Positions 18,936 to 49,185 of a DNA stretch of 64,000 nt are shown here, one piece after another. Made by a program: the position numbers and the translations under genes. The stretch lies in assembly GCF_039555335.1 (NCBI RefSeq), contig NC_092647.1:12123594-12187593 (forward strand). The letters are read 5' to 3'. Numbering within the stretch: position 1 is the stretch's first letter; every line of letters begins with the position of its first letter. The notes below the pieces were generated by a model that was not told the DNA's origin, ran no database searches, and saw only the letters and a program-made list of their open reading frames with translations. The DNA comes from Amphiura filiformis. Taxonomy: Eukaryota > Echinodermata > Ophiuroidea > Amphilepidida > Amphiuridae.

Positions 18936-18945
18936 ATATATAAAA

Positions 18946-19112: not shown

Positions 19113-19984
19113 ATATTATACTTAGAGTTGTTGCAAACCAGCTGGGGCATTTATGACAAACGTAGTTACTGTGCTAGTCCGGCATAAATTCGGACTAGCG
19201 GCGTGTTTTTCAGAATTAAATGTCTGACTATCGCAGTGTCGGACTGTTGCAGTGGTTTTAATATTTGGACTAGCGCATGCTTTTTTCGGACTAGCGCAGT
19301 GTTTTTCATTTTAGGACAGACGCACCCCTTAAGAATAGGGAATATTGTGTGCACCTAATTCTAATGTCATTTGAAAAATGTTGGTACTTTTTTTGTTGGT
19401 ATCTTTTAATGGCGATGATCTATCCAACAATACCGGAACGATGTGTCTAGTAATCCAAAGGCCAATTTCCTCATTAAGACAACTATTATGAAGCTCATAA
19501 TTCTTGGGCATTGCTGTTATCACGCATAAAGTACCTAGAGCTGATTTGGATCGTTTCAGGATACCTTCGAGAATGCGTTTCCCCGGTTAGTAGCTATAGA
19601 TACGAATTCTCCTATAGCGTAATACGCTCGTATAATATGATCGATTGGGTAAGTTTGCGTGGGATGATTTTGTCAATGGAATCACTCACCTTTAAGATGT
19701 TCGCTCTTCCTATATCTGAACGTTTAATCCTTAGGGTGTGCACATGTCTTATATATTAAAGAAAACAATGTGACATGTTATCTCTTTGCGTATATAGCAT
19801 AGGCAGGTTATTTTCTTGTTGATATAAGAAGTAGTTCGCAGACACTGAACTCGTTGACCAGTGATGCATTATATCAAATATGAGCTGAAAGGCAATACAA
19901 ACCAATCATGTCGGTGCTTTTCATCAACAGAAGGAATTTTAATTTTAATTATCTACTTATGTGTTCATTAATTAGTCAATTCAT

Positions 19985-20010
19985 TCACATTTATTTGTTT
20001 GTTTATCTAT

Positions 20011-20093
<83 letters not shown>

Positions 20094-20095
20094 TT
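19985..20095. repeat. (TTTA)n microsatellite
   Basis: Almost pure TTTA units for about 110 bp. Its translation gives LFIY repeats, which are not a protein. Confidence 0.95.
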
Positions 20096-21447
20096 TGCTG
20101 GTTAATCGTACATTAAATCATTTATCAATTTGTTTACACAAATTATACAATTTTGCCTGTATTAGTGATGCTCGCTAACTATTTAGTTTAAAGCAACGTT
20201 AACACTGTAACCTAGGACACCACCAATGTCCAGATTGGATAAAGGATCAATAATATTAGTCAACAATCAGCTACCACCCGCTGATGACAGAGAAAGGTTT
20301 CCAAAAAAAAAGTGAGTGTTGAAGACTTGTTTTAAACTTTCACACACAAATAAGGTAACAGTTCTGACAAAAAATCTTTTTCACAAAATGTCAGTGTTCA
20401 TTATCAAATGTGTGTACCGTTTTCATTTTCAGCCAAATTAAATGAGGTTTAATGAAAAAGAATTGCTATTTACCTTTAACCGCCTAGATAGTGATTTTAT
20501 ACGTCCGAGATGTAACAGCGAAACTGACTGACTGATCTATATCTCGAAAATTTATTACAAATCACAGATTTTGTCTATAAATACAACACCTATCGGGCCA
20601 TTGTTTCCGGACTAGCCCATGCGTTTTACGGGTTAGTGCTATGTTTTTCTTTTTTAGGACAATTTTCATTGAAGTACATTACAGTGTTTAAAAAACGTGT
20701 CTACCACATCGATTAGGTTATAGAATATTGTGTCGAATTGTAATTCTCGCTATGTATAATGGCGGGTTTACAAGGATTCAAAAAAAGCGAAGTGATTTTT
20801 GGTGCGCTACGCACAGACACAACGCCTAGACGTTGACCCACAAGCCTCATCACACTTTACAGTGCTTCACAACACTCATACATAAATTTTAGAATATTCA
20901 TTGGTTGATTGTCATCCATTTTTCATTATATTTGTACACTCATTATTATACCATGTATACAATTGACAAACGTTACTTTGATGATTACCGTAATATCAGC
21001 TTGCCAGTCCTGAGTCTGTGGAGTATGACCTTCGCCATGGTAAATTAGTCTATTATAAGACTAATTACTAATTAATCTGTCATTGTATTCAATGACAACT
21101 AAATATTGTAAATGCTATTAGATTTGTTTTTATTGGCAAACGAACTGTTTTAATTATATAGCTTTCAGTCTTAATTTTAAGGTAAATTTTGCCTGATGAG
21201 ACATCAGTCACGTTAAATTTTGAAGAAGAAAAACGTATGTATGATATGAGTAGCTAAGTAGTAGTTTTGGGCACTGTAATGGAAATGAGATTCTACCATT
21301 CCAAAAATATGACTTTTAAAGGAAAATCGAATTCTTTAAAACTTACCTATAACATAAAATGTCGTCCCTTTCAAACATTCATGCATAAAGAACATGTAAA
21401 CGTTCCTAGCAAATGTGACTAATTCCTTATGGAATTACTGATATTTT

Positions 21448-21758
21448 ATGCAGCGTGATTTTGGTAGTCTACAGTGTTTTTATTAATGATAATCATCATG
21501 ATCATGTAATAAATTGATATCAAATGAGAGCTCCTATTTTCTCATTAACATATTGAAATTAGAGTTCCAAATCGGTGTATTTCCAAAGATATGATCAAAA
21601 AACTGTTGAATTAGTCTAAAATATGGTATACCACATGTGAGACTAATTCGACAGTTTTTTGATGATTTCTCCGGAAATATACCGATTTGGAACGCCTAAT
21701 TTCAGCATGTTAAGAGAAAAATATGATTTTTCACCTGATACCAAAATCAGCATTTTGA
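21448..21758. mobile_element. about 310-bp foldback element
   Basis: The left arm runs from GCAGCGTGATTTTGGTA to AAAAAACTGTTGAATTAGTC. The right arm is its inverse, ending TACCAAAATCAGCATTTTGA. The second copy is at about 25244-25556. The duplicated unit ends exactly with this element. Confidence 0.7.
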
Positions 21759-22430
21759 CGGTTCAAAATGGTATCGATACTTTTGGGACACCTTGTATAT
21801 TACTTTTAAAATACTACGTTCTTAGTTAGGAGGCGGGCGTTTTTGAATAAACGTGAAACCAACCTTTAAATAACGTAAAATCTCGTCTACAAGCATATAG
21901 AGTGTTTTTAATGAAAGATTAATTAATACGAAACAACCGTAAATATGACAATGCAAAATATTGGTCTTGCAATAACACTTGTTTGTATATGCTTGTATCA
22001 GTAATTTATTTACTCAAACTTCACAATGTTATAATTTTGTCAATAGATGGTGCCTGGATTAATTTAGCTTAAATCAAAATTACTCTCTATGCTTGTAGAC
22101 GAAGTTTTACGGTACATGCAGTAGCTACGAGGAAATAACATAGTAGATACATTGTTTTGAACTGGGATGCAAACATTTTTGAATATTTTGGATCGGGTTT
22201 GCTCCCAAAATACAAAGCAGTATGCGCTTGAAATAAACAAAGTAGACTACTGTGATTTTGAATGGAATGATGGTGCTAAAATAAACGCACCAAAGCGACT
22301 GAAACATATAAGGTCTTTGAAAGAAGCATTTTCATGACTGTGTATTTAAAAAACGTGTAAACATGTCTAGCTTAAGATAAGTGGCTCATAGCAAAGCACT
22401 CAGCAATGTCAGAAGAATTAAAGAATTAAA
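21759..22430 (+). repeat. block piece identical in layout to 12284-12935
   Basis: Begins at the same GGTTCAAAATGGTATCGA word as 12287 and includes the TA MITE (21873-22112). It stops at AAAGAATT, where copy 2 continues with unrelated sequence. It separates the two 3.1 kb copies. Confidence 0.8.
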
Positions 22431-23775
22431 GCCGTAAATAGTACCTCCAAGCCGTAAATAGTACTTTTGACCATGCCTTCCGCGTGCGCGCATTCGATGC
22501 GACGGAACAGTTTACGCACGCGAAACTGCCATAGCGTGATTTCTCGCTGCTGTAATTGGTTAGCCCGATTTAGCCTATTCGATTTTTTTTGAAGGGCAAA
22601 ATATAGGTTGTGCTTAAATTGGTCGTGCTGTTCACTCAGGATAGAAGCTGGAGAGTCAAAACGTCAAATAATTTTCTTTTAACCAATCAATGAACAAAGA
22701 TCATATTAATGAAATATATAAAACAAATATATACTGCCTTTATTCGAAGTTCTGGTTAAAACTATGGTCCCTCGTTGAGATCAATTAATACTATTTTCCT
22801 TCGGGGCTGCGCCCTCAGGAAAATAGTACTATTGATCTCACCTCGGGCCCATAGTTTTAACCAGAACCTCTCATGGCAGTATATATTTGTATATTATACT
22901 TAGAGTTGTTGCAAACCAGCTGGCATTTATGACAAACGTGTTACTGTGCTAGTCCGGCATAAATTCGGACTAGCGGCGTGTTTTTCAGAATTAAATGTCT
23001 GACTATCGCAGTGTCGGACTGTTGCAGTGGTTTTAATATTTGGACTAGCGTATGCTTTTTTCGGACTAGCGCAGTGTTTTTCATTTTAGGACAGACGCAC
23101 CCCTTAAGAATAGGGAATATTGTGTGCACCTAATTCTAATGTCATTTGAAAAATGTTGGTACTTTTTTGTTGGTATCTCTTAATGGCGATGATCTATCCA
23201 ACAATACCGGAACGATGTGTCTAGTAATCCAAAGGCCAATTTCCTCATTAAGACAACTATTATGAAGCTCATAATTCTTGGGCATTGCTGTTATCACGCA
23301 TAAAGTACCTAGAGCTGATTTGGATCGTTTCAGGATACCTTCGAGAATGCGTTTCCCGGTTAGTAGCTATAGATACGAATTCTCCTATAGCGTAATACGC
23401 TCGTATAATATGATCGATTGGGTAAGTTTGCGTGGGATGATTTTGTCAATGGGATCACTCACCTTTAAGATGTTCGCTCTTCCTATATCTGAACGTTTAA
23501 TCCTTAGGGTGTGCACATGTCTTATATATTAAAGAAAACAATGTGACATGTTATCTCTTTGCGTATATAGCATAGGCAGGTTATTTTCTTGTTGATATAA
23601 GAAGTAGTTCGCAGACACTGAACTCGTTGACCAGTGATGCATTATATCAAATATGAGCTGAAAGGCAATACAAACCAATCATGTCGGTGCTTTTCATCAA
23701 CAGAAGGAATTTTAATTTTAATTATCTACTTATGTGTTCATTAATTAGTCAATTCATTCACATTTATTTGTTTGT

Positions 23776-23818
<43 letters not shown>

Positions 23819-23823
23819 TCTAT

Positions 23824-23894
<71 letters not shown>

Positions 23895-25556
23895 TTTGCT
23901 GGTTAATCGTACATTAAATCATTTATCAATTTGTTTACACAAATTATACAATTTTGCCTGTATTAGTGATGCTCGCTAACTATTTAGTTTAAAGCAACGT
24001 TAACACTGTAACCTAGGACACCACCAATGTCCAGATTGGATAAAGGATCAATAATATTAGTCAACAATCAGCTACCACCCGCTGATGACAGAGAAAGGTT
24101 TCAAAAAAAAAGTGAGTGTTGAAGACTTGTTTTAAACTTTCACACACAAATAAGGTAACAGTTCTGACAAAAAATCTTTTTCACAAAATGTCAGTGTTCA
24201 TTATCAAATGTGTGTACCGTTTTCATTTTCAGCCAAATTAAATGAGGTTTAATGAAAAGAATTGCTATTTACCTTTAACCGCCTAGATAGTGATTTTATA
24301 CGTCCGAGATGTAACAGCGAAACTGACTGACTGATCTATATCTCGAAAATTTATTACAAATCACAGATTTTGTCTATAAATACAACACCTATCGGGCCAT
24401 TGTTTCCGGACTAGCCCATGCGTTTTACGGGTTAGTGCTATGTTTTTCTTTTAGGACAATTTTCATTGAAGTACATTACAGTGTTTAAAAAACGTGTCTA
24501 CCACATCGATTAGGTTATAGAATATTGTGTCGAATTGTAATTCTCGCTATGTATAATGGCGGGTTTACAAGGATTCAAAAAAGCGAAGTGATTTTTGGTG
24601 CGCTACGCACAGACACAACGCCTAGACGTTGACCCACAAGCCTCATCACACTTTACAGTGCTTCACAACACTCATACATAAATTTTAGAATATTCATTGG
24701 TTGATTGTCATCCATTTTTCATTATATTTGTACACTCATAATTATACCATGTATACAATTGACAAACGTTACTTTGATGATTACCGTAATATCAGCTTGC
24801 CAGTCCTGAATCTGTGGAGTATGACCTTCGCCATGGTAAATTAGTCTATTATAAGACTAATTACTAATTAATCTGTCATTGTATTCAATGACAACTAAAT
24901 ATTGTAAATGCTATTAGATTTGTTTTTATTGACAAACGAACTGTTTTAATTATATAGCTTTCAGTCTTAATTTTAAGGTAAATTTTGCCTGATGAGACAT
25001 CAGTCACGTTAAATTTTGAAGAAGAAAAACGTATGTATGATATGAGTAGCTAAGTAGTAGTTTTGGGCACTGTAATGGAAATGAGATTCTACCATTCCAA
25101 AAATATGACTTTTAAAGGAAAATCGAATTCTTTAAAACTTACCTATAACATAAAATGTCGTCCCTTTCAAACATTCATGCATAAAGAACATGTAAACGTT
25201 CCTAGCAAAGGTGACTAATTCCTTATGGAATTACTGATATTTTATGCAGCGTGATTTTGGTAGTCTACAGTGTTTTTATTAATGATAATCATCATGATCA
25301 TGTAATAAATTGATATCAAATGAGAGATCCTATTTTTCTCATTAACATATTGAAATTAGGAGTTCCAAATCGGTGTATTTCCAAAGATATGATCAAAAAA
25401 CTGTTGAATTAGTCTAAAATATGGTATACCACATGTGAGACTAATTCGACAGTTTTTTGATGATTTCTCCGGAAATATACCAATTTGGAACGCCTAATTT
25501 CAGCATGTTAAGAGAAAAATATGATTTTTCACCTGATACCAAAATCAGCATTTTGA
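22431..25556 (+). repeat. 3.1 kb direct duplication, second copy
   Basis: Partner of 18654-21758. Its left junction lies inside the inverted-repeat element that starts the first copy. The microsatellite here (23766-23897) is longer than in the first copy and has one TCTA interruption in the middle. Confidence 0.9.
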
Positions 25557-26068
25557 TGGGGGTAAAGTGAGGGGATGAGGTTGTCAATCATGTTTACCCA
25601 CCTTTAAGGGGGCACTCAAAGTGGGAAATTTTAGATATTGTTTTGTATTGTATCTTTAAAAGTAAAGATGATATATATAAAATTATAAAAGTATATATTT
25701 AGAAAGGAAATGATGTAAGAAATCTAACTAACACGGCAGATTTCTGCACACATTGCAGTTTTGGAGAAAAGCGTCAAATTTGATTTTTCATGCTAATTTT
25801 TTTTCTTCCACCAATTACACTATTTTAATAATATTTGTAAGGACAAAAAAATATTGTCGACAGGTCAGAGTTCAACGACACCAACTTTAGTCGTGAGCGT
25901 AATTAGAACCAAATGGACATACCACATATCTAACACAAACGGGAACCATGTGGAACAGGAAAATAAGCGCATATTAAAAGAAATATTTGTGAGATATCAG
26001 ATATTACACTCACAGTTCTGTATTACTGCGTTTAAGCGAGAAATAGCAAAATGAGTTCTCCACCATGT
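25557..26068. other. non-coding, nothing recognised
   Basis: AT-rich sequence. The plus frame at 25854-26054 (66 codons) has no recognisable domain and is probably chance. Confidence 0.5.
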
Positions 26069-31944: not shown

Positions 31945-32960
31945 AGTCTAGCCGCCGCTCGGCTAGACTAAAGGAAGAAAGAACTAGACTTAGCTGTGGT
32001 CTAAGACCACGAACACAGCCGTGTTGTAACCCCCAATGACCTTTGACCCCAAAATATATGAAAACCCCATAGACATTGGCTAATGTCAATGCATGGGTGC
32101 ACGTGGCATCACTTTGCTATGTTATTTGTGGCAGAAGTGGCATTTTGAAGGTTTTTCGTCTCAGGCCGGAAGTGACCCCTTAATGACCTTTGACCCGAAA
32201 TAAAAAAATACCACATATGAATTGGGTAACCACAATTCATGTGTGAACATACCGTTACTGTCCTATGTTTTTCTTAGCAAATAAAAATTTTTGAAGGTTT
32301 TTCGTTTTATACCGGAAGTGACCCCTTAATGACCTTTGACCCCAAATCTGTTAGGACCCCATAGACACTGGGTAATAGCAATTCATGTGTGCAAGTGGTG
32401 TCACTGTCCTACGTAATTTGTGGGAGAAGAAGCATTTTAAAGGTATTTCATTTTATACCGGAAGTGGCCCCTTAATGACCTTTGACCCTAAATTAAAAAA
32501 TACCACACATACACAGGGTAACTACAATTTATGTGTGAACATACCGTTACTGTCCTATGTTTTTCTTAGCAAATAAAATTTTTTGAAGGTTTTTCGTTTT
32601 ATACCGGAAGTGACCCCTTAATGACCTTTGACCCCAAATCTGTGAGGACCCTATAGACATTGGGTAATAACAATGCATGTGTGCAAATTGCGTCACTGTC
32701 CTACGTAATCTATGGGAGAAGAAGCATTTTGAGCTCAAATCACGTTTTTGACCCCTATGACCCCTGCGTGACCTTTGACCCCATGAGTTGCATGTGACAT
32801 GTAGGGGCATGGACAATGATGGCTGTGACCAAATTTGTGTTTGTGGGCAGGGAAAGGAGATAAGTATAGGGTCACGGGCATAGATGTTCGTGTTTTGTCG
32901 AACACAACTCTGCTGAAGCCACGTGGTTAAGCTATGCAAATGATGATATTCCTAAACAAT
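31945..32960 (+). mobile_element. TGACCTTTGACCCC repeat element with terminal hairpin
   Basis: It opens near the hairpin AGTCTAGCCG-CCGCT-CGGCTAGACT (31945-31969), a purine tract and GAACTAGACTTAGCTGTGG. The body consists of about 145-bp units, each containing ACCGGAAGTGACCCC, TTAATGACCTTTGACCC, a CATGTGTGAACATACCG or CATGTGTGCAAGT segment, and TGTCCTACGTAAT. The same family lies in the opposite orientation at 62660-64000. Open frames here (32385-32576, 32547-32939) recur only because the repeat recurs and are not genes. Internal tandem units plus a hairpin end are reminiscent of Helentron-derived non-autonomous elements; that link is inference. Confidence 0.65.
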
Positions 32961-34150
32961 TTGAAGCAGCAAGAGATTTGCGGATTCGTCCTCAGTGCCC
33001 AGGACCCGCAAGACTGTACTTTGTCAAATCAAGAGAAGACAAAGTAGGAGACTAAGACTCGTTTCTGACTAGTGCAATTTTTGTTGTAGATAGAAAGGGG
33101 TCCAGAACAGTGTACTTTGTCTGCAGAGAAGACAAAGTTGCCCCATTTCTAACATACGCACAAATTGCCCTACCCTGGGCATACGAGTCTTAACTAAGAC
33201 TCAATTATAATTATTGGTTAGCATATAGTATATACAATAATTGCAAATAATTTATTATGATTCATGACAAATTATTTTATGTAGGCTATATGCAGAGTGA
33301 CATTAATACATTATTAAAATATAAACAGAATATTTTATTGATATTGCACAAAGTGAAGGTATATATAATTTACAAAAAAGTGAATAAAAAGCGACTACAA
33401 TATTATCTGATATAGTGATGTCATGTATAATAGGCCGGACAATGTGAAAGCATAAATAGAATTACAACATAATTATCGAGGTTATGTCACAGAAATACGC
33501 AGGCTTATAATTTTTATTGTAGGCCCCGTTGCATTTTCTAAAAGTTATACTAAGATAGAGGCATATATGTGTACCAATTCTCTGAACCATTAACAAATTA
33601 TGAAAATGCATTTTTTTACACTTTGAATATGAACATGTTGAAAAGTAGTTCAATGGAATGACGATGTTCGTTATATTATAGAAGTTATAGTATGATGAAA
33701 TTCGGTAATTGATTGACATGATTCGTGTATTTTATTTTTGATAAATGAGGTATTGAAACTGTTAAAGACGAGTATAAAATATGCAGGAAAAACACAATAT
33801 TTAAATAATCCGATTCATGAAACATTCATAGATCATTGTACAATTAACAATGTTATATAGATATTAATTAACATCTGCTATGTCACAATTATTGCGTATA
33901 ACAAAATACTTGGATTAACATAAATATGTTTCACTGAGCTCAATTCTTTTTAAAAAAGATATATAAAATTTAGATTCTCATGCAAGACATTACTAAGTGC
34001 ATGGTTTATATTAATTTTGACATAAGTTAACAGTTATCCTGCTCTTAAACTTGCTTTTGCATATAATCAAACATTTTACCTTTATTGTTTTGTTTCAGTA
34101 CAAGGGAATCGTCTTTGTTTGTAAATCTAAATGGTTTACCTGAAAAGAAT
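32961..34150. other. non-coding; possible 3' flank of the Helentron
   Basis: Two similar hairpin-forming words (GTACTTTGTC ... GACAAAGT) at about 33017-33046 and 33111-33137, and a perfect 8-bp-stem hairpin GAGTCTTA-AC-TAAGACTC at 33185-33202. A Helentron is expected to end in a hairpin downstream of its gene, that is at lower coordinates here, so one of these could mark its end. The remainder is AT-rich without signal. Confidence 0.35.
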
Positions 34151-34152
34151 TG

Positions 34153-34691
34153 CTAATACGTTATGGCAATAAATGTTGGCTGATGGTAGCTGTAATATGT
34201 TGTCATTACAGATGCTTGGTATTGCTTGGGCTTGGGCTTGACATAAATGTGATCTAGCAGAGTTCCTTTAGCGGTGGTAGAATTGGAGATGACCTGATGG
34301 TATTGTCTGAAAGCGGGTAAAATGGTTTCTTTGAACAAGTTGCGATTGAAATCTCCGACGAGTACTTTGTAATCTGTATCTAGTACTTCCATTTGGGCTG
34401 TGATATTGTTCATTTCGGTGCTAAACGTGCTTGTAATTGTTGCCATAGGCTTGTATATTGTCGCAACCAGCAAGTTTGTTTTTCCACTTGTTCTTATGGC
34501 AAGTATATCACATTCATTACTGAAAAGTGGTACTACTGTATAACGGATGCCGTTCTGAATATACATAGCGACACCTCTACCATTTCCAGAGTTAACTACT
34601 TCCAATGTGTATCCTTCAATTGAAACAGAGTCGAGGTTACTGTCGTCGGTAAGCCATGTTTCAGACAAACAGATCACATGGGCCTTTCTTA
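34153..34691 (-). pseudogene. Helentron ORF part 9: EEP (AP-type) endonuclease
   Basis: Continues the fused endonuclease: HVICLSETWLTDD carries the metal-binding Glu. GRGVAMYI, LLVATIYKP and VLVGDFNRN follow, then LLDHIYVKPK and a last motif YYSYHQP. In retrotransposon endonucleases the last motif is usually SDH; here it is SYH, so either this lineage uses another residue or activity is reduced. This type of nuclease is also found in CR1-like LINEs. In Helentrons it is thought to help cut the target or the element. The stop is TAG at 34153-34155. Confidence 0.9.
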
Positions 34692-35687
34692 TTTCTGGGT
34701 TCTTTTGAGATCATCTATGTGTCGATGTAAACTCTGTATGTTGTGATGAGCGATTACAAAATTTGTGTTGTGGTCGATTTCTGTCAAAGGGTTTGCTTTG
34801 GAAAGATCACATGTAGGCATTTTGGCGACGTTTGCTTCGATATCTTCATTACAAAAGATGCGGGATTCATCATAATCCATCAAATACATTCCTTCAAGAT
34901 GAGTGACTCGACTGAGTGCCACGTAAGCCATCGATTTTCTTAGACCTTTCATAGAAATCACTGCCTGATCTGTCGTTTGGCCCTGCACTTTATGAACAGT
35001 AACAGCCCATGCAAGTTTCAATGGCATCTGTTCTCTTGTCGTAGTGAATGTTCTACCTTTAACCTGGAACGATTCTTTACGTGGCTTTATTGGTACACAT
35101 CCTGCATAGTGTGGTGGAATAAACTGGGTAGTTCGTGTTTTTGCTCCAACTCGATCACTGTCAAATTTGACATATACAACAATTGGCATATTTTGAGAAT
35201 TGCAGAACTCGATTCCTTTCACTATGCCAGGAACTCCGTTACATAGTCCATCTGAAACATCTACATTTGCTATGAGCATAACTCGAGCATCTACTGCTAA
35301 TTTCAGGTAAGATGCTAAAGAAGTATCATCTGCACGTGTTGTTCTATGTGGCGTTTCATGCACTTGGATAATTCGTCCACCTCTTTGGTCAACGTCATTA
35401 GCTTTAATGGTGAACATTTCAGTGTTCAGTGACGCAAGTTTTCTTTCATTGTGGCTATCGACATCTTTGTTAAGGTAAAACAAATGCAATGCATCAGGAG
35501 GCGCTGTTAGATTATTTTCCTCAACTCTTCGTGATTCGAGCAATTCTTTGTCTGTCTTTTGCAGTGGTTGCTTCTTTTTCCGTTCACGTAGCCGATTAAG
35601 CATTTGAGCAAAGATAGCATCATCTTTTTGGCGCATGATTTCTTTGAGCTCAACTATTTGAAAGAGTGGGTTCCATATATCTTTCAA
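34689..35687 (-). pseudogene. Helentron ORF part 8: Pif1 helicase C-terminal half and start of endonuclease
   Basis: Begins near [19 protein letters not shown], the Pif1 arginine-finger-type region. It continues with DARVMLIANVDVSDGLCNG and IVKGIE, then motif V/VI sequences AWAVTVHKVQGQT and YVALSRVTHLEGMYL. The tail FVIAHHNIQSLHRHIDDLK has the Asn-containing first motif of EEP endonucleases, so the helicase is fused directly to the endonuclease. It ends at a TAA produced by a one-base change in a short run at 34692-34694. Confidence 0.9.
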
Positions 35688-36069
35688 AAATTTCGTCGTG
35701 TGGAAAGCATAATGGTGTAGGTGGGCTAATTGGTGGCAATTGATAGAAATCTCCCACTGCTAGGATTGACACATTGCCAAAGTCAGTATATGTTCCTTTA
35801 ATCTGCTGCAACCGTCCGAATATATATGTCAGCTGAGTTGTACTAACCATTGAAATTTCGTCTATAATTACTAATTGCAAATGCCGATATTTGACTCGTA
35901 AAGTGTTTAGTGATTCTTCACCAAGTGGTTTGTATTCTTTTTGAGATTTAGGATTAATTTTTAATCCGGAGCAGATTGTTTGACCACAAATATTGAATGC
36001 AGCTGTTCCAAGGTGAGCAAGTGACAAGACTGTCATATCTTCGGCGGATTCTGTCATGCGTGCAAATAC
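35650..36069 (-). pseudogene. Helentron ORF part 7: Pif1 helicase Walker B region
   Basis: Contains [17 protein letters not shown] (the motif Ia region; many Pif1 proteins have TIHS where this has TICS), Walker [12 protein letters not shown] and motif [15 protein letters not shown]. It lies between the Walker A part and the C-terminal motifs, in a different frame. The frame changes again at the five-base run 35686-35690, where one base fewer restores continuity with part 8. Confidence 0.9.
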
Positions 36070-37110
36070 TTTTTTGCATAGTACTGAATGCATTTGATAA
36101 CATGCGACTTTCCGGTTCCTGCACCTCCAGTAACAAACATTTGAAATGGGTCGACACTCTGATCTCTTGCTTTATCGTCACACCATTTTGAAACATGATT
36201 AAATACCTGACGTTGCTTTTCGTTCAGTTGGCGCATCATGTGTTGTGCTTGTTCTTCGGTTATTTCAGGATCGCATGTTTCAATCGCACATCTAGGTTGA
36301 TCTCCCTGATGTATATTTTGTCGTGACTGCAGTTCAGGAACCTCAATTTCGGCAAATTCATCATCTGAATCTTGAACTAAATTGCGGTCTAATTGGTCAT
36401 CCAGACGTTGTTGTTCACCTTGTGGATTGATTGCTGCCCATACATCTTGAAGGTCTGCAACATGTTGAATCGCATCCCATGCTTCATCTAGTTGATCAGT
36501 TGCTGGTTCAAACTCTTGCATATTTTCTTTAACTATATCTTTGACTCGTGCTCTTTTGCCATTGATATTCACATTACCTTTCATATGATAATCTTCATAT
36601 TTGGTAAAGGCATTTGGCTTGATTTGTTCATTTCTGTGTGGCAAATATAAGCGTAGCATGTTCATATGATAACGCTCACTGTCTTTCTTAACTGATACTC
36701 TTGGGTAACGAATAACAGCTGGCTTTCCTCTTGTACGTTCTTTCATCTTGATGGAGCAATTTTGCAGTTCGATTGGTTTATTTCGTTGGCAAGATTTTGC
36801 TTGTTTCTCATTACTTGCTTCATCACCTACATCTTGTTCATTCTCTGATTCAGTTTGCTCAACATCTGTTTCGTTTTCTGCTTCATTGTTTGTTTCGTCA
36901 TTACGTACATTTTGTTCATTCTCGGGTTCAGTTTGCTCAATATCTCCAGCATCTGTTTCGTTATCTTCTTCATTTTCTGTTTCGTCATCAATTAATTCAT
37001 CTGGACTGGCATTGATATTATCTGATTTGCCTGATACTTGATAATGACTGGAGAAAAATTTAGCCATGCACATGTTATTATACTTTGAGGTTCTTGGTCT
37101 ACCTATATAC
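36054..37110 (-). pseudogene. Helentron ORF part 6: acidic linker and Pif1 helicase Walker A
   Basis: The frame passes MCMAKFFSSHYQ, then a long acidic stretch of imperfect ETE/QTE/NEQ repeats (about residues 25-90 from the ATG at 37073), then IRYPRVSVKKDSERYHMNML and LRLYLPHRNE. The helicase starts near QLNEKQRQVFNHV with Walker A GGAGTGKS at residues 316-323. Superfamily 1B Pif1-type helicases unwind the displaced strand. The frame is lost in an A run at 36070-36075 (six bases where seven keep the frame), directly after Walker A. Confidence 0.9.
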
Positions 37111-37553
37111 TTTTCAATTTGGGATGTTTTCCAAACTTGTTCAGATTTCCTGCGTTTGCTTGTACCTCTTTCAATGGCAATGATATTTTGTGTCCGTCCA
37201 AATCAGTTTGAACAAAGATGACCTTTCTGGTACTATTTCGTAGAGGCATGCTACAGATTAGGTAGATAGCGCCCATGACACTTATTTCTCTATGTTGCAA
37301 ATAAACACTACCAAGTTTTCTCAATTGCGAAACAGCATCATCATTTCCCAATTCCCTTGCTTCTCTCTGTGCAATTCTTAACAAATCACCCATTTCTCTT
37401 TCAGATTTGGTAATGTAGGAAAGCATGTACATGGCGGCACCAAATGGATCTAACACGAACTGTATGTCCATATTTCCATTCCAGCATCGAATCAAGTGTG
37501 GGTTGTAATTGTTGATCCATTGATCTTGGATACGTCGTTTCAGGTTTATTGTG
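37103..37553 (-). pseudogene. Helentron ORF part 5: Rep catalytic tyrosines
   Basis: Contains [19 protein letters not shown] and then [14 protein letters not shown], the Y-x3-Y-x2-K signature of the two catalytic tyrosines of Helitron Rep (residues 23, 27 and 30 counted from the ATG at 37495). The remainder, with [20 protein letters not shown] and [16 protein letters not shown], matches the usual segment between Rep and helicase. It ends at a TAG caused by a one-base loss in a T run between 37111 and 37120. All residues I would need for nicking and strand transfer are in place. Confidence 0.9.
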
Positions 37554-38413
37554 TTTTTCTTGTAACCAATGCTAAGTACTCTTCAAATTCAGATTGTGTA
37601 ACTTGTGCGGTACGGAGTATTTGTTCAAAATCTGCGTCAGTGTTACCTTCGACAAGTTCCCAAATCTTCTTTAAAGTTTCCTTTGCCTTTGTCTCATCTT
37701 CTTTTCTATGTTCAAGAGCTTCTTGATATTCGAGATCTTCTTCATTTCCTTCTATCCCTTCAACTGGTCTGGAGATAAATGTTCTGTTGGATGGTGGTTT
37801 TGGAAAATTAAACCGACATACTTTTCCAGTTTTCCGACATGATTTCGAATGACTTTTACTGTGTAGTTGCACATTGGTCACTAGTTCATGTAATTCTTCA
37901 TCAGTCTCAGGGGGAAGTTCACAAGATATATACTTGTCAACAAACTCTGTAATATCTTCATCAGAATCTTCATCAAACTTCGGTGCATCTTTAACCCATA
38001 CCATCATGTGAATGTGTGGCCAACCTCTTTGTTGGAACTCTGTCCTGTAGTAATAGTCCTCAACTTTACCAATTGGGTTAGCTGATGAGCACATTACATC
38101 TTTAATTAAAGTGTGCACTCTTCGTTCAAACATTCTGGCTGCTGCTGCAGGATTAGACATGATGATAGTACAGTGATCTTCCCATGTCATGTTCTTATGT
38201 TGCTCTTCAGTCATTGGTGGTTTACCTTGTGATATTAGGATACCATTGGTTATTTCGATCCAGCGTCTGTCTGCAGCACTAAATGACATGAAAAATGTTG
38301 GGATTCCTAATTGACGTATCATTGCAAACAGATCTCGCTTTGATCTTTCCCAATAAGCAGGTGTTCCTCTTATTTGTGTCAGGAATCTATATCCTTCGTC
38401 CCTTTTGATTAGG
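37546..38413 (-). pseudogene. Helentron ORF part 4: Rep domain, HUH motif (Helitron_like_N)
   Basis: Continues from part 3 after a one-base loss in the A run at 38414-38418 (plus-strand T5). It begins with GTPAYWERSKRDLFAMIRQL, then FFMSFSAADRRWIE. The metal-binding motif HIH occurs in FQQRGWPHIHMMVWV (residues 103-105 counted from the ATG at 38322). An acidic stretch and CRKTGKVCRFNFPKPP follow. HUH nucleases nick one DNA strand and stay linked to it through tyrosine, starting rolling-circle transposition. The key histidines are present. The frame closes at 37546 shortly after another A-run change at 37554-37558. Confidence 0.9.
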
Positions 38414-40805
38414 TTTTTACTTGTTCCTTGTCTCGCAACATAGATGCAGTTATCTTTCTACCTCCTGCTGTCTTAGTATTACCTACTCTAATTGCGATAG
38501 AAATACCGGAGTGAATTTGGTGAACCTCTGTTGCATACAAAGCAAAATATATATATTCCGGATTCCTGACAAATCTGTTGTCCATTGAAAATAAGCGAGC
38601 ATTAAAGTATCGTGAAGGTGATATCTTTTTCTCTCTCTTTTCCATGTAGGTGTTTTTGCCATCAGGAAATTCAGTTGGAAAACTCTTTGATTCCATTTCC
38701 AAAACCTTTTCAGGTATATTTCCTTCGCCAGGAGCAAGACACATTATTGATTCATCATGTTTGTCTGCAACATATTGAGCAAAATCTACTGGATGTAAAA
38801 AAAAAAAAAGTGGTGCTGAGGTATTTGTAACATAGTCAGTTTCCGCTTGTACATTATTTTCTGATGCATCTGGAGGGTTATATTCGGAAGGCTCATCTAT
38901 CATCATACGATCCAGATCAGAATTGTCTTTAGTAGCTTGGCTATCTTTATTTGCATCATCAGCAATATCATCTTTGTGTTGATCTTCAACATTACTCATA
39001 TTGTCACTGGCCAGATGACTGGAACATTCTGATTCATTTTGGTTGACATCGGTAGACTTAATGTTTGTTGTTTCATTCACAGATATATATGTATCGACTT
39101 CTATGGCTAGTGGTTGAATGACAAACGTTTTGTATCTTAGATGCAGTTCCTCAGACAAGAGAAGCAGATAGTCGTGAAGGTTTTCAAAGTTTTCAAAATA
39201 CAATGCAACTGCAGTTCCTTCTGATGTTGGAAAACCGAATTCATCTCGAGAATGAGAATCAAAAAATACATATTGTCCTGATGTAATGTCCTTATAAATC
39301 GCCATCATGTAAGGTTCAAATATCAAAATGTTAAAATTTGATACATGGAATGCGTCCTGTAATTCAACATTAAGTGGTCTTAACGCACTGTCTGGAGTAG
39401 CGTCTAATCTTCCACATCTTTGAATCAGATATCGAATCGGGAAAGATGCATTGCCAAAGGTACAAGTCGTCGGCAATTGTTCACTATCTAGATACTTGCT
39501 ACGATCGAGTTGGCCATTTGCATTTAGTTCCTGAGATGTTGTCTTGTACAATTCATCACCATATATCAGAATTTGGTCTAAATCATCGGATGTCAATTTG
39601 TGGGAAATACTCGGTATATAGCATAACATTACTAATGCATTACACGAACATTGTACAGCTCTTGATTCTTCGCTGAATTGGACATCTCCTTGATGAAAAT
39701 TTGCGAAAATTCTGTTTGCATAGGTTAATCTAATGGCCAGATCATCATCTTGGAAGTCATGATCTCTGTTCTCATTAACGTGGTCATCGTAACATTGACT
39801 AGAACTTCCGTCATAGTCGGTACTTTGTATGAATGACTTATCATCGTTCTTCGAGGTATCATGGAAAAGTTCATCTGAAGCATTAGTGTGGTGACTTGAT
39901 TCCGACATTGTTTCTTCCAACGCATCGTTTTGTGCCTGATGTTCTTCATTGCGAAGTAACTGATCGTCTAACATAGTGTCAAACTCGTCGAAATTTATAT
40001 CAATACTTTCATACTCCGGATTGTTTTGTTTTAACCAGACAAGCGCTTGCCTTACTTTTGTTGGATTTATGTCCTGACACATGTGATGTCCTTTGTACTC
40101 TAATTTCTTTTTTAGTTTCACTCTGATTAGACTTTGTTCTGTTGGCAGTCTTGGTAAACATCGAGCAGTATTATCGACATTAGCTTTGACGCATACAACC
40201 TGTCCATTGATTCCTTTTTGAGCACCCTTTATAAGTGAAATCATCTTCATGAATAGTATGGCAGGCGAAATGAGATGTCTTTCCAGCATATTTAACTGAG
40301 ATAGTTCAGGTGGCTGCTCATGTAAGCTAAGCTTATTTACTGTTGCTAATCTAGGAACAGAATTTGATAACATATTTCTATGACATGCTTCACAGATCCA
40401 TTTATTTTGGTTATCATTATCTGAAGTAAGAGCAAATTCTGCAATTGCAATATTTGCTGGTATACTCTTGAGTAGGATGCGCTCATTATATTTGTCTCGA
40501 TATAATGCTCTAACCTGTTGTTTGAAAAGGATTCGCTGGCATATTTGGCATATGTATATTAGTTGTTGGTCTTCTTTGCACGATTTTTTGAAATTCGCAA
40601 TAACAGTATCGATATCTGATGATTTCTTTAATCTATTAGACTGAACATGTTGTCGTTTTGTGTCGGCCTTTTCAGGGTCTTTATACTGAAGTCGAGACTG
40701 ATTTCGTGCTTGTTGTCGTTTTCTGTCAGCCTTTACAGGGTCTTCATACTGAAGTCGTGCTTGTTGTCGTTTTATGTCGGCCTTTTCAGGGTCTTCATAC
40801 TGAAG
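38409..40805 (-). pseudogene. Helentron ORF part 3: zinc-finger-like, DUF6570-like, protease-like domain B
   Basis: Same frame as part 2, open after the TGA. More DPEKAD repeats are followed by a CxxC...CxxCH cluster (YICQICQR and WICEACHR, about 40550 and 40390), and then a region starting at ATG 40371-40373 with LHEQPPELSQLNMLERHLIS and RCLPRLPTEQSLIRVKLKKK, the pattern of DUF6570. An acidic serine-rich linker leads to protease-like domain B (about 39735-39070), nearly the same as domain A with QCSCNAL and FDSHSRDEFGF intact. The tail has LAPGEGNIPEKVLEME and SRYFNARLFSMDNRFVRNPE, typical of the stretch before Helitron Rep. A 13-base T run in the coding strand near 38800 is read in frame. 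Confidence 0.85.
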
Positions 40806-41130
40806 TCAAGACTGAAGTCGTGCTTGTTGTCGTTTTATGTCGGCCTTTTCAGGGTCTTCATACTGAAGTCGAGACTGAAGTCGTGCTTGTTGTCGTTTTA
40901 TGTCGGCCTTTTCAGGGTCTTCATACTGAAGTCGAGACTGAAGTCGTGATTTTTCTCGTTTTATGTCAGCTTTTTCAGGGTCTTCATACTGAAGTCGTGC
41001 TTGTTGTCGTTTTATGTCGGCCTTTTCAGGGTCTTCATACTGAAGTCGAGACTGAAGTCGTGATTTTTGTCGTTTTATGTCAGCATTTTCAGGGTCTTCA
41101 TACTGAAGTCGAGACTGAAGTCGTGTTTTT
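40640..41130 (-). repeat. in-frame coding tandem repeats, DPEKAD unit
   Basis: About eight near-identical units of 60 to 78 nt (the longer form adds RLQS). The plus-strand core reads GGGTCTTCATACTGAAGTCG. The repeats stay in frame and encode charged helical peptide. They lie between protease-like domain A and the zinc-finger-like region. Confidence 0.9.
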
Positions 41131-41768
41131 TGTCGTTTTCTTTCTGCGTATTCTGGTGATGAGTACTGCTCCTTTGATCTTTTCCTTTTTTGTGCGCGAA
41201 TTTCATTTTGTTCTTCTATTGGTTTATTTTGGAACCATTTTTGTTGTTTCGTTAGTTTTTTTCTTGGTTTTGGTAAACTGCAACCATCTTGGCTACTTTT
41301 AAACGGTGTCATATTTTCTTCAGTCCATGCCGAACATCCTGGTTTATTAACAGTCTTGGTAGATCTAATGTCTGTATCACTCGCAGATATATGTGTATCG
41401 ACTTCAATGGATAGTGGTTGAATGACAAAGGTTTTGTATCTTAGATTCAAATCCTCAGACAAGAGAAGCAGGAAGTTGTAAAGGTTTTCAAAGTTTTCAA
41501 AATACAATGCAACTGCAGTTCCTTCTGATGTTGGAAAACCGAATTCATCTCGAGAATGAGAATCAAAAAAGACATATTGTCCTGATGTAATGTCCTTATA
41601 TATTGCCATCATATAAGGTTCAAATATCAAAATGTTAAAATTTGATACACGAAATGCATCCTGTAATTCAACATCAAGTGGTCCTAATGCGGTGTGTGTA
41701 GTAGCGTCTAATCTTCCATATCTTTGAATCAAATATCGAATCGGAAAGATGAATTGCCAAAAGTACAA
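40806..41768 (-). pseudogene. Helentron ORF part 2: rest of protease-like domain A and in-frame tandem repeats
   Basis: Continues domain A with FPIRYLIQRYGRLDAT, then VFFDSHSRDEFGFPTSEG, which supplies the Asp-x-His expected of a cysteine protease triad, and AVALYFENFENLYNFLLLL. A basic linker (KKLTKQQKWFQNKPIEEQNE) leads into about eight repeats built on RLQYEDPEKADIKRQ, highly charged and probably helical. The frame ends at a TGA (40806-40808) where every sister repeat has CGA (Arg). It is therefore a point nonsense mutation of CpG-decay type, and the same frame continues beyond it. Confidence 0.8.
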
Positions 41769-42184
41769 GTCGTCGGCAATTGTTCACTATTTAGATACTT
41801 GCTACGATCGAGTTGGCCATTAGCATTTAGTTCCCGAGATGTTATCTTGTACAATTCGTCGCCATATATCAAAATTTGGTCTAAATCATCGGATGCCAAT
41901 TTGTGGGAAATAATCGGTATATAGCATAACATTACTAATGCATTACATGAACATTGTAAAGCTCGTGATTCTTCGCTGAATTGGACATCTCCTTGATGAA
42001 AATTTGCCAAAATTCTGTTTGCATATGTTAATCCACCTGTAGGCCTATTCATATCCGGCTTTTTGTCAATTAAGCTCACAGATTCGCTACATTCGATTTT
42101 ACTATCTGGATTATCATGATTATTGTCCTGTAAGTTCTTGAGAAATGCCAATCTGGCACGTGCTTTTGCAGAACGTCTAGGCAT
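41729..42184 (-). pseudogene. Helentron ORF part 1: basic N-terminus and first half of protease-like domain A
   Basis: Begins MPRRSAKARARLAFLKN (ATG at 42182-42184; an upstream in-frame TTG is not needed). After a polar linker comes LTYANRILANFHQGDVQF and the QCSCNAL motif, which holds the presumed catalytic cysteine. The frame then closes. Comparison with domain B shows that one G is missing from a GGG run at 41743-41744, and the next frame continues the domain. QCxxNA with a later FDSHSR motif resembles the C76/herpes-tegument-type deubiquitinase fold found in some Helitron proteins. That family name is my inference; an OTU or C48-like fold is the alternative. A basic N-terminus could be a nuclear localisation signal. 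Confidence 0.7.
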
Positions 42185-42189
42185 TTTCA

Positions 42190-44070
42190 AAAATAATGTA
42201 ATTGAATAAACAGTAATAAATGGATTAAGCTAATTGGTATAAGTTTAATAAACGCGAACAATGAAACGTTTAATACAATATAACGGCAAAAATATTAACG
42301 ATATCTATTAAAATACGTAAAAGTAGCAAATTATAACTACAAGAATACAGCAATTAATTGTAACAAATGTAACTTTTAAACAAACAAGTTTATTAATAAT
42401 AATATAGAACACTATAAAAACTATAACTATAACTATTTATAACACTTAACTACGGATTAATATGTTAACTGATGTACAAAAGATAATTCTTTGAATGAAA
42501 TATATCGGAGTACTTTATGATGAAACTACTTAAAATGTCCAACATATACTTTGAGCTACCTTTGGTTTTTGAAGTAATTACTTTAACGGGACTGCACGAA
42601 GAGTCAAGACTGAAGAAAAGGTCTAACCGTTAATTGTCACTTTTATCTATCAACAGAACACTAGTTTTAGACAGAACGCTAGATATTCAAATTTGTTGTC
42701 AAGTACGAATGTAGATTTTAGCATTACCCAGGGTCGGTTGTACGCTTATTAAACGTTGTTTTATATCATACGGAACCAATCTACAGACCCCATAGACAAT
42801 AAATAGAACCGTGTTGTTCACATTATTGTTGTACTTGCATTTGTTTTAAAATAATTTCATAATTAGGCCTGAGTTTTGGTTTATTCTCAAAGTCACATTT
42901 CAAATTCGGTTTTAACTCCCAATACAGAACGTAAATTCTATAATAATTATGTTCATTGATCTTTTTTTGAAGAAAAAGTTTAACATTGTTATTCCAGTCG
43001 AAGATACTGTGTGTCTGAACACCAGTGGTTGAGGCTGATGTTGGCAAATGTAAAATTTACTGTACTTCTATAAATCGTCAATAAGGTGTTCAAAAATTCA
43101 TTTTTTTGGCCGAAAATACCTTGATATCCCTTTCAAACCATATTTTATCCACGTTAACATGTTCAAAACAGAGAATGTCTTTTTTTTCTACATATGCGTG
43201 CAACTTTAAAGGCTTGTTTCTCTGTATTTTGTATTCAAGTTCCATGACCTTTGACTGATAATAACTTTGTAACTACATATCCCAAAGGTATCATTTTAAT
43301 CCACACTTACTGCTTTATAATTATGAAACTGTAAATATCTCAATTAACTAATTTATGCCATGTGCCTTATTTACATGCGTTCGGTAAATTAGTAAGCAAT
43401 TCTTGAAATATGAACGGCGATGTCTTTTACCTTTCTGCAGATGTGAAATGTTGTTGCATAAACTCTGAATCAATGATAATTGAGTATAATCGACTTTGGT
43501 GCACTGTAAAAGAACTCGGCCGATATTTTCAATCTAGGGTCAACTTTGTCAAGCGAAACACATGTATAATACATAGTAGCACGAATCCTAATGTTATTCG
43601 TGTTGCTAATCAAATCTACTTCCAGGGTGCTTGAATTCTTCAATAACGCCATTTGTATTTATCAAAGTCCCGATTGACTTGTTACAAAACGAGCATGTGC
43701 ATGGATTGTTTTCTATCATGCCGTATTGATTTGAAACAACGGATTCTTCCCCCGCAACTTTAATAAACTTAGTGACGTTGTTTTCCCTGTATCACGATGT
43801 AGCCTACTCACACTTAAGATAATCTCACAAGAGGCAAAAGAGACGTTCTGGATGAGAATTAATTTTTTTAATTGCTGGTACAACAAATTAGATCAAATAC
43901 ATGAGATACAATTAATATTTGAAAACACATCATGATGTACATCTGATAATAAACAATAAATTTGTACAGAAAATATAACTACGCATTTTAGTTAATTAAA
44001 TCTGGTATTTCATGACTAATAATCCATATCCATTGGTGTAAGCATGAAAGAATCACAAGATGCATTAGAA
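42190..44070. other. non-coding, 5' side of the Helentron
   Basis: AT-rich, with no recognised promoter or terminal sequence. The Helentron's 5' end should lie here. The short frames at 42823-43047 (minus) and 43410-43652 (both strands) overlap or lack any domain and are not called. Confidence 0.4.
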
Positions 44071-44395
44071 TTATAATAATGTATAGACAAAAATATGAAT
44101 CAAATACTGGACTCACCAACGATTTTTTCAGTAACGTTGCGACCCGTTCACCGGGTCTTCATCAGACTGCGACTGCGCAGAGACTTGACTGATGGTTTGG
44201 TCACGTGATGGTAATCGGCGAGGAAGTAGTTTCACGGTGGGGTCCCAGGCGTGTGATAGCAGGAAACGGAGGCCCCCTTCTTGTTGAGTGCTGGCTGCTC
44301 AGCTCTTTCCCGGATGGATTCTTTCACTCCCCTCTCAAACCACCTCTCCTCCTTGTCGAAGATTATGATGTCGTCGGCATTGAATTGGTGGCCAG

Positions 44396-45499
44396 TTGAA
44401 ACAATTGTCTGAGTTGGTTGATATTTGTCTGAATACCGCGTATTTCTCGTACAAAGGGCAATACTACAAGCAGATCCATGGCTGTGTCATGGGATCCCCC
44501 CTTTCACCAATTGGTATTGACATACGTATGGAAGAATTTGAGCAATATGTCCTGAAGAACTTTCCAGGCAAACCTCCAAGACTCTGGCTCAGATACGTGG
44601 ACGATACATTCGTTGTTATCGATCAGAACGAACAAGACTACTTTTTCAAGTATATCAATCAAGTTGACTCCAACATTAAGTTTACTCAGGAAAGTAGTAA
44701 AGACAATCGGCTTGCTTTCCTAGACTGTCTTGTTCAAGTTAACCCTGATAACACCCTTAGTACTACTGTTTACAGGAAACCGACCCATACTGACCAATAC
44801 CTTCAGTTTGGGTCACATCTCCCCCTTGTGCACAAATTAGGGGTGATCCGTACCTTATATCATCGCGCGGATACCATTATTTCTGAAGAAAGTGACGTTC
44901 AGAAAGAAAAAGATCACGTCCGCAGTGCCCTTCAACAGTGTGGCTACCCAGACTGGGCTTTCGAGAAAGCCGCCACAACCAAAGACACCCCACAACAAAA
45001 TAACACGGGAGATGTCATTGCTAGCAAAGCCAGAGTTACTATACCTTACTCCACAGGCCTTTCAGAGAGAATCAAAAACACTTTCAAGGCATTCGGCATT
45101 GCTACCTCCTACAAGCCCTCTAATAATTTACGGAGCAAACTAGTGCACGTAAAAGACAAAATTCCAAAAGACAAACAGTCTAACCTAGTTTATGGACTCA
45201 CATGCTCTGAAACTAGCTGTGCCCAGTCTTATGTAGGAGAGACAAAACAGTCTATTAAAGCCCGCTTCAATCAACACCGGAGAGGAAGTTCCAACGAAAA
45301 CCAGGACTCCGCAGTCTTCACCCATTCAAAACTCTCTGGCCACCAATTCAATGCCGACGACATCATAATCTTCGACAAGGAGGAGAGGTGGTTTGAGAGG
45401 GGAGTGAAAGAATCCATCCGGGAAAGAGCTGAGCAGCCAGCACTCAACAAGAAGGGGGCCTCCGTTTCCTGCTATCACACGCCTGGGACCCCACCGTGA
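44396..45499 (+). pseudogene. Penelope-like RT (C-terminal part) and GIY-YIG endonuclease
   Basis: 367 open codons to a TGA at 45497-45499. The first codon read is TTG at the junction with the inverted arm, so there is no true start and the protein is N-terminally truncated: the fingers and the first catalytic Asp motif are missing. What remains is GCVMGSPLSPIGI, RYVDDTFVV (the catalytic YVDD), AFLDCLV and VYRKPTHTDQYLQFGS, all typical of Penelope-type RT. Then comes a GIY-YIG endonuclease with LVYGLTCSETSCAQSYVGET and IKARFNQHRRG. The frame has no internal stop, so the insertion is fairly young. This copy cannot make a full RT. Confidence 0.92.
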
Positions 45500-45562
45500 A
45501 ACTACTTCCTCGCCGATTACCATCACGTGACCAAACCATCAGTCAAGTCTCTGCGCAGTCTG

Positions 45563-45981
45563 CACCTTTGTTTCCAATGGACATTTTATTGTGAAATGTC
45601 ATTGTACAAGGAATACATAAAAAAAATTCCACATAGCCCCCGAATGAAAAGTATTTAATTATCTTTGTAATCACTCAAAAACCATTTGGTGTGAATTTTA
45701 CGTCCGAACTAGAGGCTATTAAATTTTTACGAGCCTTTTTATTTTACATGTAAAGCCTATGGGAGTGACGATTAGAAATGGACGGCAATATTGAAAAACC
45801 CTAATTTTGGGCCATTTTAGACACTAAAATGCCCATAAAAAAAGAATAGCCTCTAGTTCGGATGTAAAATTCACACACAATGCTACCTGAGTGAGTACAA
45901 ACATAATTAAATACATTTCATTCGGGGGCTATATCAAAAACAAAAAATGTCCTATACCCTAATGGTTATGGAACAAAGGTG
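45563..45981. mobile_element. 419-bp foldback MITE inside the Penelope element, TCTG TSD
   Basis: Ends CACCTTTGTTTCC and GGAACAAAGGTG, flanked by TCTG (45559-45562 and 45982-45985). The opposite inverted arm of the host element (about 44155-44170) lacks it, confirming an insertion. The interior is one large imperfect palindrome, for example TAGCCCCCGAATGAAA paired with TTTCATTCGGGGGCTA, and GAATTTTACGTCCGAACTAG paired with its inverse. Confidence 0.9.
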
Positions 45982-46129
45982 TCTGATGAAGACCCGGTGA
46001 ACGGGTCGCAACGTTACTGAAAAAATCGTTGGTGAGTCCAGTATTTGATTCATATTTTTGTCTATTTTATACTACTGGATGACTCAAAACATTCATAATC
46101 TTATAATAATGTATATTAACGGGGTTATT

Positions 46130-47055: not shown

Positions 47056-48447
47056 GTTGGGTGCAAGGTCCAGTTCCAGCTCTAGTCCGACGGACCCCAG
47101 AACTCCCTTGTCGAAGAGATTACCTACAATTCAAGAACAATAGGTAACTCTGTGGTAGTCTGCAATCGTGACATATAACGAGGACAAAAACAACACAATG
47201 GCCTGCAGGTAACCATGTCACATATAACAAGAACAAACACAAACATAACATGAATGAAATTGTCGCTGATCTAGGACAGCGTTCAAGCTTTTGACTTACG
47301 TTTGGTGATCAGAATGGTGGGAACTTGAAGTGAAAGATATCCTTCTTAAAGGAACATTTTGTAGGGTGAAATTGTGTGTAGAAACTGAATCTGACATAAA
47401 AAAAAATGCATAATTATCAACTTGAAAATTTCCCCATAGCACTGTACAGGCATATTTCTGCCCGAAGTCCTCAAATTTGAGCGAAACTTGTCACAAAAAA
47501 AACAAGTCCTTCAAAACTGGGACTCTCAGGGCTAAACAAATATAAACTTGCTCTAGAGGAGGTCTTGGCTGTAGCAAGTTTATATTATTTTTTTTTGTTT
47601 AGCTTTAAACCTCAACAGTTTTGAAGGGCTTATTTTTTTTTGCGAAGGCCTTTATTTTGTTCACACCCGCCAAAATGTTAGGGGTAGTAACATATTACTA
47701 ATTTATTTTTGTCAGTACATTTAACCGAGTCAAGTGTTATACCACCATTTAACTATTGAAATACTGAACAAAAAGACACAAAAAGCATTTCAATAGCTCA
47801 TACCATTGAGTTAGGCGAAAATTGCATTTTTCTCAAATCAATGGTCACCCTAACCCCCAACTTTCTAACCCTGTTACAAAAATAAAGAAATTGATTTATT
47901 CCATTTAATGATTTGAATATCACAAATGTGCCCTTGTCACATAATTAGTATAAACAATTAGGCACTACTCAGTAGTTTTCATGTTCATACACTCACAGGA
48001 AATTAGCATGTGAACATTTTTCTCACCCTAAAACTGCCATTTTCGGCCAAAATTGGACCAAAAATGATTTCTTTCTCAAAATCAGTGAAAATAAGGGGAT
48101 TTAAGTGCCAAAATCTGAAAATATGTGACATTTTACCCCTAGAAACATTAAAGTACCAGGTAATCAATAATTTTGACTGTTTTCACCCCGAAATATTTTT
48201 TTCACACGTGTGTCCGCCAAAAGTAAGTCAAAGTTTGAATGCTGTCCCAGCAACTTTTTCAAATTTTGATGAATTTTTGAAAATTTTGTATATAATTTTA
48301 TATACATGAATCATGTCCTAAAGTTTATCCTAGTCTCACTGATTAACCTCCTGTTTTGGTCATATTTATCACAAATTTCCAGTCTCATGGAAAGACATTT
48401 TTGGGACCTTCCCAATGAAAGACCGCACCCACTTTTTCGGTGTCAAG
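47056..48447. other. non-coding, nothing firm
   Basis: Inverted word AAATATAAACTTGCT...AGCAAGTTTATATT at about 47538-47590, inside a weak palindrome (about 47460-47650). Otherwise AT-rich with no gene. The frame 48010-48309 (plus) has no recognisable domain. Confidence 0.35.
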
Positions 48448-49185
48448 GCTCTCACTGAAAGACCCTTTTTTTTCTAAAACCTATCCGGACATCACTGTCA
48501 CTTCCAAAGTTGAGTGCCCCCCCCCCCCTCCGACGGAACTCCCTTGTCAAAGAGATTATCTACAATTCAGGAACAATAGGCAACTCCCAAGATAGCAAGA
48601 CAACATTAACAATGTTCAGCATGGTCACAGTCGGTAAGCTGACACCAAGACAATGTTAGACCATTGTTAAATTATGGTTGCAATGGGAACGTCAGCCTAA
48701 CATTGGGTCAACGTTGTTATTCCAACCTTACATTATGGTCAGTATGTTAACGTCAAGCAGCCATCCTTAAAATGACGGTCAGCAGTGATGTAGCGTCATA
48801 GGGGCAAGTGCCCCTAGGCTCTCACTGAAAGACCCTTTTTTTTCTAAAACCTATCCGGACATCACTGTCACTTCCAAAGTTGAGTGCCCCCCCCCCCCCT
48901 CCGACGGAACTCCCTTGTCAAAGAGATTATCTACAATTCAGGAACAATAGGCAACTCCCAAGATAGCAAGACAACATTAACAATGTTCAGCATGGTCACA
49001 GTCGGTAAGCTGACACCAAGACAATGTTAGACCATTGTTAAATTATGGTTGCAATGGGAACGTCAGCCTAACATTGGGTCAACGTTGTTATTCCAACCTT
49101 ACATTATGGTCAGTATGTTAACGTCAAGCAGCCATCCTTAAAATGACGGTCAGCAGTGATGTAGCGTCATAGGGGCAAGTGCCCC
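48448..49185 (+). repeat. recent 370-bp tandem duplication
   Basis: 48448-48817 and 48818-49187 are the same sequence apart from one extra C in the poly-C tract. Each carries CTCACTGAAAGACCC, the C run, CCGACGGAACTCCCTTGTC and a stretch of AACATTG/CAATGTT words. This is a young duplication or a collapse/expansion artefact. Confidence 0.9.

Follow-up and report, generated by a model that had tools for sequence, protein, structure and literature searches.

A Helentron with two deubiquitinase domains in Amphiura filiformis and the origin of its seven frame breaks

When a transposon that encodes one very long protein is found with a broken reading frame, is it the element that has decayed or the assembly that has erred? 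In a draft assembly, transposons made of a single long open reading frame (ORF) readily pass for dead, and the question is raised here by a Helentron found in 64,000 nucleotides of the ophiuroid Amphiura filiformis (NCBI RefSeq assembly GCF_039555335.1, contig NC_092647.1, positions 12,123,594 to 12,187,593 of the forward strand), a stretch that we call the window and in whose own numbering all positions are given. The coding region of this element lies on the minus strand at 34153..42184, from an ATG at 42184 to a stop at 34153, and its reading is interrupted seven times by a change of frame and once by an in-frame stop. We lean, with limited conviction, towards assembly error rather than decay as the source of most of the seven breaks, which we infer from an excess of small insertions and deletions (indels) in another duplication of the window, called pair A below, and we consider that this copy probably lacks full competence.

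The ORF listing gives nine consecutive stop-free stretches on the minus strand, spanning 42229-34153, and when these pieces were scanned separately with Pfam the domain order from 5' to 3' was a first VTD deubiquitinase, repeats, DUF6570, a second VTD deubiquitinase, Rep, a PIF1 helicase and an AP-type endonuclease, all on the minus strand. Because Rep, helicase and endonuclease are all present, the element, of about 8 kb, is by its coding content a Helentron, or endonuclease-bearing rolling-circle transposon, and the name and domains given to it in an earlier sequence-only reading are borne out, with the domains found on separate pieces. The HUH Rep, related to Helitron_like_N, lies at 37999..38394 (PF14214, E 2.1e-29; residues 22-153 of the piece 37549-38457) with its HIH motif at 38008-38040; a Y-Y-R precedes this HxH motif, and a W, in the form G-W-P, sits at Rep motif 2. 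Downstream of Rep there is the PIF1-type helicase, in three broken pieces with approximate limits at 34849..36230 (PF05970, E 3.3e-10 on 35653-36171; PIF1 structures, E 1.6e-17 on 34692-35759), and the AP-type endonuclease occupies the C-terminal end at 34153..34710 (PF03372, E 1.3e-7), where no solved structure matched. The DUF6570 domain is found at 39987..40364 (PF20209, E 5.2e-21; residues 148-273 of the piece 38412-40805), and a stretch at 37103..37582 carries a Y-x3-Y-x2-K motif, read by eye, with no Pfam match over the cut-off and no relevant structure match. Judging by homology, the single long Helentron protein would nick and unwind DNA via Rep plus PIF1, while the two VTD domains, according to a published suggestion, may shield the transposition proteins from degradation. 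The uninterrupted frame of an intact autonomous element is absent from the sequence as given, which has the seven frame changes and an in-frame TGA.

Comparison of the reading frames across the eight junctions between these pieces places a frame change at seven, six of them shifting in one direction and the one near 35686 in the opposite direction, just as the sequence-only reading had counted them, and the eighth junction is the TGA at 40806..40808, where the frame does not change. At the seven breaks the adjacent open frames overlap by 22-118 bases, and these are the intervals where the frame must change. Each break had been described as a single-base length change within a run of 2-6 identical bases or beside one. 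This holds for the break near 41743, where the sister VTD copy differs by a 1-base gap, but for the other six only the frame modulo 3 is seen and the size of one base is assumed. The sites had a similar fate, given that 41743 is fixed by the sister copy, whereas codon usage (80% sets) places the break at 37111-37120 within 37122-37196, the one at 34692 within 34699-34708 and the one at 35686 within 35653-35683, all at a low resolution illustrated by its 80% set of 41732-41781 for the site that the sister copy fixes at 41743. The PIF1 alignment begins at residue 26 of its piece, at about 35684, in agreement with a shift near 35686. As for the runs, lying in or next to one of at least two bases says little, because 69% of the element positions do so (28% for runs of at least three and 10% for runs of at least four). 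What stands is a modest association of the breaks with longer runs: a run of at least four bases is present in all seven break intervals (random mean 4.06, P 0.015), and one of at least five in four of the seven (random mean 1.45, P 0.033).

As a control for error versus decay, small indels were counted against substitutions in the window's own repeat pairs, 17 of which were hand-picked from the self-BLAST list, omitting overlapping rows and keeping two satellite pairs. Pair A (18653-21761 / 22430-25559) is a 3.1-kb direct duplication, 99.4% identical by substitutions, whose members show 18 substitutions between them, together with 11 gaps of 1-2 bases and a 28-base gap in a microsatellite. 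In 13 older pairs there are 44 such small gaps against 536 substitutions, and the ratio in window pairs is about 0.06-0.09 small indels per substitution; the older pairs would lead one to expect about 1.5 small indels in pair A, in place of the 11 observed (P ~5e-7). A constant error term beside the mutation term is favoured, with P 8e-6 when pair B is left out; the likelihood-ratio value of 1e-14 obtained for this term with all 17 pairs was discarded because pair B, with 0 substitutions and 1 indel, inflates it. With the indel rates of pair A taken per run length, even a whole Helentron would be expected to show 9.1 breaks, and seven were seen (P(<=7) 0.31). If pair A does show assembly error, the breaks therefore need no other cause. 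According to the available portion of the Polypolish paper (PMC8812927), long-read-only bacterial assemblies mostly retain errors of homopolymer length, and polishing is difficult in repeats.

Several observations weigh against assembly error as the general cause of the breaks. The error term falls to zero without pairs A and B and so rests on one pair, and the indels of pair A could be real slippage. Runs of at least six bases are not enriched, being present in one of the seven break intervals (random mean 0.49, P 0.41), and the frame is kept across both the run of 13 bases at 38797-38809 and the run of 7 bases that starts at 41256, though it is there that length errors should be worst. Moreover, by the rates assumed, seven indels to one stop have a P of 0.05-0.37 under plain decay. 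Finally, there are two substitution-type changes in the element that length errors cannot create. The first is the TGA at 40806-40808, which stands in one of the coding repeat units where five of the six units with the same join have CGA, so that TCGA has become TTGA with respect to its sisters; the claim that the codons between breaks stay open, with its implied absence of stops, was thus wrong. The second is in the C-terminus of the endonuclease, which reads S-Y-H-Q-P, with the SYH at 34183-34191. AP-type endonucleases are expected to carry S-D-H-x-P, and the SYH of the element, which we take to be a change at their catalytic position, is probably a second lesion of the substitution type. 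The catalytic motifs had been called intact, and this is correct for the Rep HIH, the catalytic residues of both VTDs and the helicase motifs, but probably not for the endonuclease. It had also been argued that decay should bring substitutions and stops, and by that argument both are now at hand.

The most serious alternative is, then, a real early decay, in which the copy inserted recently and then acquired a nonsense change, a substitution at a catalytic site and seven genuine small indels, all faithfully assembled. The TCGA to TTGA change and the SYH are just what it would leave behind, the intact frame across the runs of 7 and 13 bases agrees with it, and at 0.06 to 0.10 small indels per substitution the seven indels to one stop have a P of 0.05-0.27. 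Nevertheless, pair A shows such small indels arising in window sequence without matching substitutions, and its excess, if a property of the assembly, already predicts all the breaks; we therefore regard early decay as a tentative explanation, rather unlikely but deserving attention. A physically intact element, with all seven breaks and the TGA being sequence errors and the SYH a tolerated variant, would agree with the catalytic residues present in both VTDs, Rep and helicase and with the low implied decay, but a C-to-T change at a TCGA site is a typical real mutation and no length error, and the SYH replaces what we assume to be a catalytic position, so that this possibility is very unlikely. 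That the element is a functional gene whose breaks are introns or programmed frame changes is hardly believable, since, even with neighbouring open frames overlapping at the breaks, seven separate frame changes would be needed, the sister VTD copy is unbroken at the same place, and the mite Helentron ORFs and the Phytophthora ORF are reported as intronless in the available text of PMC4067079.

Assembly error for most of the breaks is thus the reading that we prefer, and the evidence on it is mixed: in its favour stands the excess of pair A, with 9.1 breaks predicted against the seven found, and against it stand the TGA, the SYH, the long runs kept in frame and the P of 0.05-0.37 under decay. 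Most of the breaks would then be small-indel assembly errors of the same kind that marks pair A. One stop among about 2,675 codons corresponds to a neutral divergence of 0.24-0.30%, with a one-sided upper bound of 1.1-1.4%, and therefore to little neutral decay. The copy would be young in substitutions, a recent descendant of a lineage under selection, carrying beyond its length errors at least one lesion of the substitution type. In view of its premature stop and its probably damaged nuclease site, the element is not simply intact. With the TGA and the doubtful endonuclease, the earlier description of it as near-intact is unproven. In a wider sense, breaks that stem from the assembly would mean that autonomous Helentrons are undercounted in such genomes, and a test that needs no reads is to set small indels against substitutions in other young duplicates from the same sequence.

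The evidence for selection comes from the two VTD deubiquitinases, which lie about 2.3 kb apart with the coding repeats (40650..41156, 51/63 bases, of the EDPEKADIKRQQARLQ type) and DUF6570 in between. Copy 1 (41358..42033) has its frame broken near 41743 and a match to Herpes_teg_N on its first part with E 0.0041, under the curated cut-off, while copy 2 (39051..39730) has an open frame and a match to PF04843 with E 1.2e-5, just over it. When aligned with PDB 8add (E 8e-17, 63/182 aligned residues identical), VTD2 keeps the catalytic Cys and the Asp-x-His (QCSCNAL, FDSHSR), and VTD1 has the same residues. The DNA of the two copies aligns over 680 columns at 92% identity, the differences being 49 substitutions, the 1-base gap of the 41743 break and one 3-base gap. 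In 223 of the 226 VTD codons, after dropping three gapped ones, the synonymous divergence (Ks) is 0.170 and the nonsynonymous divergence (Ka) 0.051, giving a Ka/Ks of 0.30 (bootstrap 0.17-0.56); the part with the Asp-x-His, codons 120-180, shows one amino-acid change against six silent ones. Because of this Ka/Ks, both VTD copies were kept by selection after parting, in the lineage leading to this copy, and diverged yet constrained deubiquitinase domains in one element point to a benefit of carrying two. Single-sequence structure models had a mean predicted local distance difference test (pLDDT) score of 33 for the endonuclease and 46 for VTD2, too poor for use.

With respect to the ends of the element, Helentrons are expected to have subterminal inverted repeats of about 11-15 bp, a 3' palindrome and T-rich ends. 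No convincing candidate for the ends or for the subterminal repeats came up. The flanks at 42230-44170 and 33001-34153 share no inverted 12-mer, and their four inverted 11-mers compare with about 2.6 expected. At 33166-33202, some 950 bases past the endonuclease stop, an 18-base near-perfect palindrome is followed by a small hairpin, resembling a Helentron 3' end; no counterpart of the palindrome (33185-33202) lies near the 5' end, and its sole other match with up to three mismatches is at 2470-2487. No second copy of the element was found in the window by self-BLAST, apart from the VTD and repeat matches inside it and a repeat of 80% identity within 36820-36988. Protein scans of viral contigs and genome contigs confirmed no relatives, and a Rep-motif pattern scan of the viral contigs gave 14 loci, none of them a Helentron by tblastn of the nine pieces, in which the Rep piece alone matched, weakly and at four loci (L004, L005, L007 and L010; E 0.004-0.007).

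Outside the Helentron coding region, 20 control ORFs were picked from the listed ORFs of at least 78 amino acids (89 in the window, Helentron frames included); 18 had no Pfam match and two matched below the curated cut-off, so that there was no host gene in which to look for breaks. Rfam and tRNA scans of the window found nothing. A Penelope-like element at 44083-46065 has an ORF with RVT_1 (E 3.8e-6, just under the cut-off) and GIY-YIG (E 0.001, under the cut-off), and it is very recent because the inverted repeats that flank it, of 225 and 85 bases, are perfect; its ORF (44384-45499) stays open for 1.1 kb, which speaks neither for nor against assembly error. The window also contains a 371-base tandem duplication (48446-49185) whose copies show no substitutions and differ in the length of one C run, two 146-base minisatellite arrays (32026-32832 and 62690-63493) in opposite orientation, about 89% identical and some 30 kb apart, and a 19-base satellite of about 35 copies at 15739-16395.

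Among known systems, Helraiser (PDB 7lcc), presumably a bat Helitron, has a sequence-related Rep (E 1.8e-7) and helicase (E 1.9e-4 and 0.015), but to our knowledge it has neither the endonuclease nor the VTD domains, both of which are present in the window element. Helentron-Mo from a mite and Helentron-Cq from a mosquito, in the available portion of PMC4067079, share with the window element the Rep, PIF1, the C-terminal AP-type endonuclease and the Y-Y-R before HxH. The diagnostic residues of Rep motif 2 given in that portion are F/Y-w/l/y/k-R and an S between G and P; one of these two signatures fits here (YYR), whereas the window element has G-W-P in place of the reported G-S-P. Among the 30 pieces and ORFs scanned there was no match to the RPA gene reported for Helentrons, no RPA-specific search having been made.

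A further parallel is the zebrafish Helentron DrT1 (LOC108180207), which, in the available portion of PMC9741609, is of the same endonuclease-bearing type and has two active VTD deubiquitinases, so that Helentrons with two VTDs are already known. VTD Helitrons are described there from vertebrates, insects, cnidarians and molluscs, and deubiquitinase activity is known for the zebrafish VTDs. The structure matched by the window VTD2, 8add, comes from DrT1 and is VTD1 in the data statement of that paper, while the Results describe a VTD2 crystal. Since VTD2 of the window is much closer to VTD1 than to the zebrafish VTD, with only VTD2 compared with 8add, the doubling or conversion here is probably later than the split from the zebrafish line. 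It is conceivable, although doubtful, that Helentrons doubled their VTD more than once, the domain having been duplicated or converted within the present element and both copies maintained by purifying selection, independently of the zebrafish element with its two VTDs. If so, rolling-circle transposition would be sensitive to the dose of deubiquitinase, and in many such elements the dead appearance would come only from assembly errors that break the 8-kb frame.

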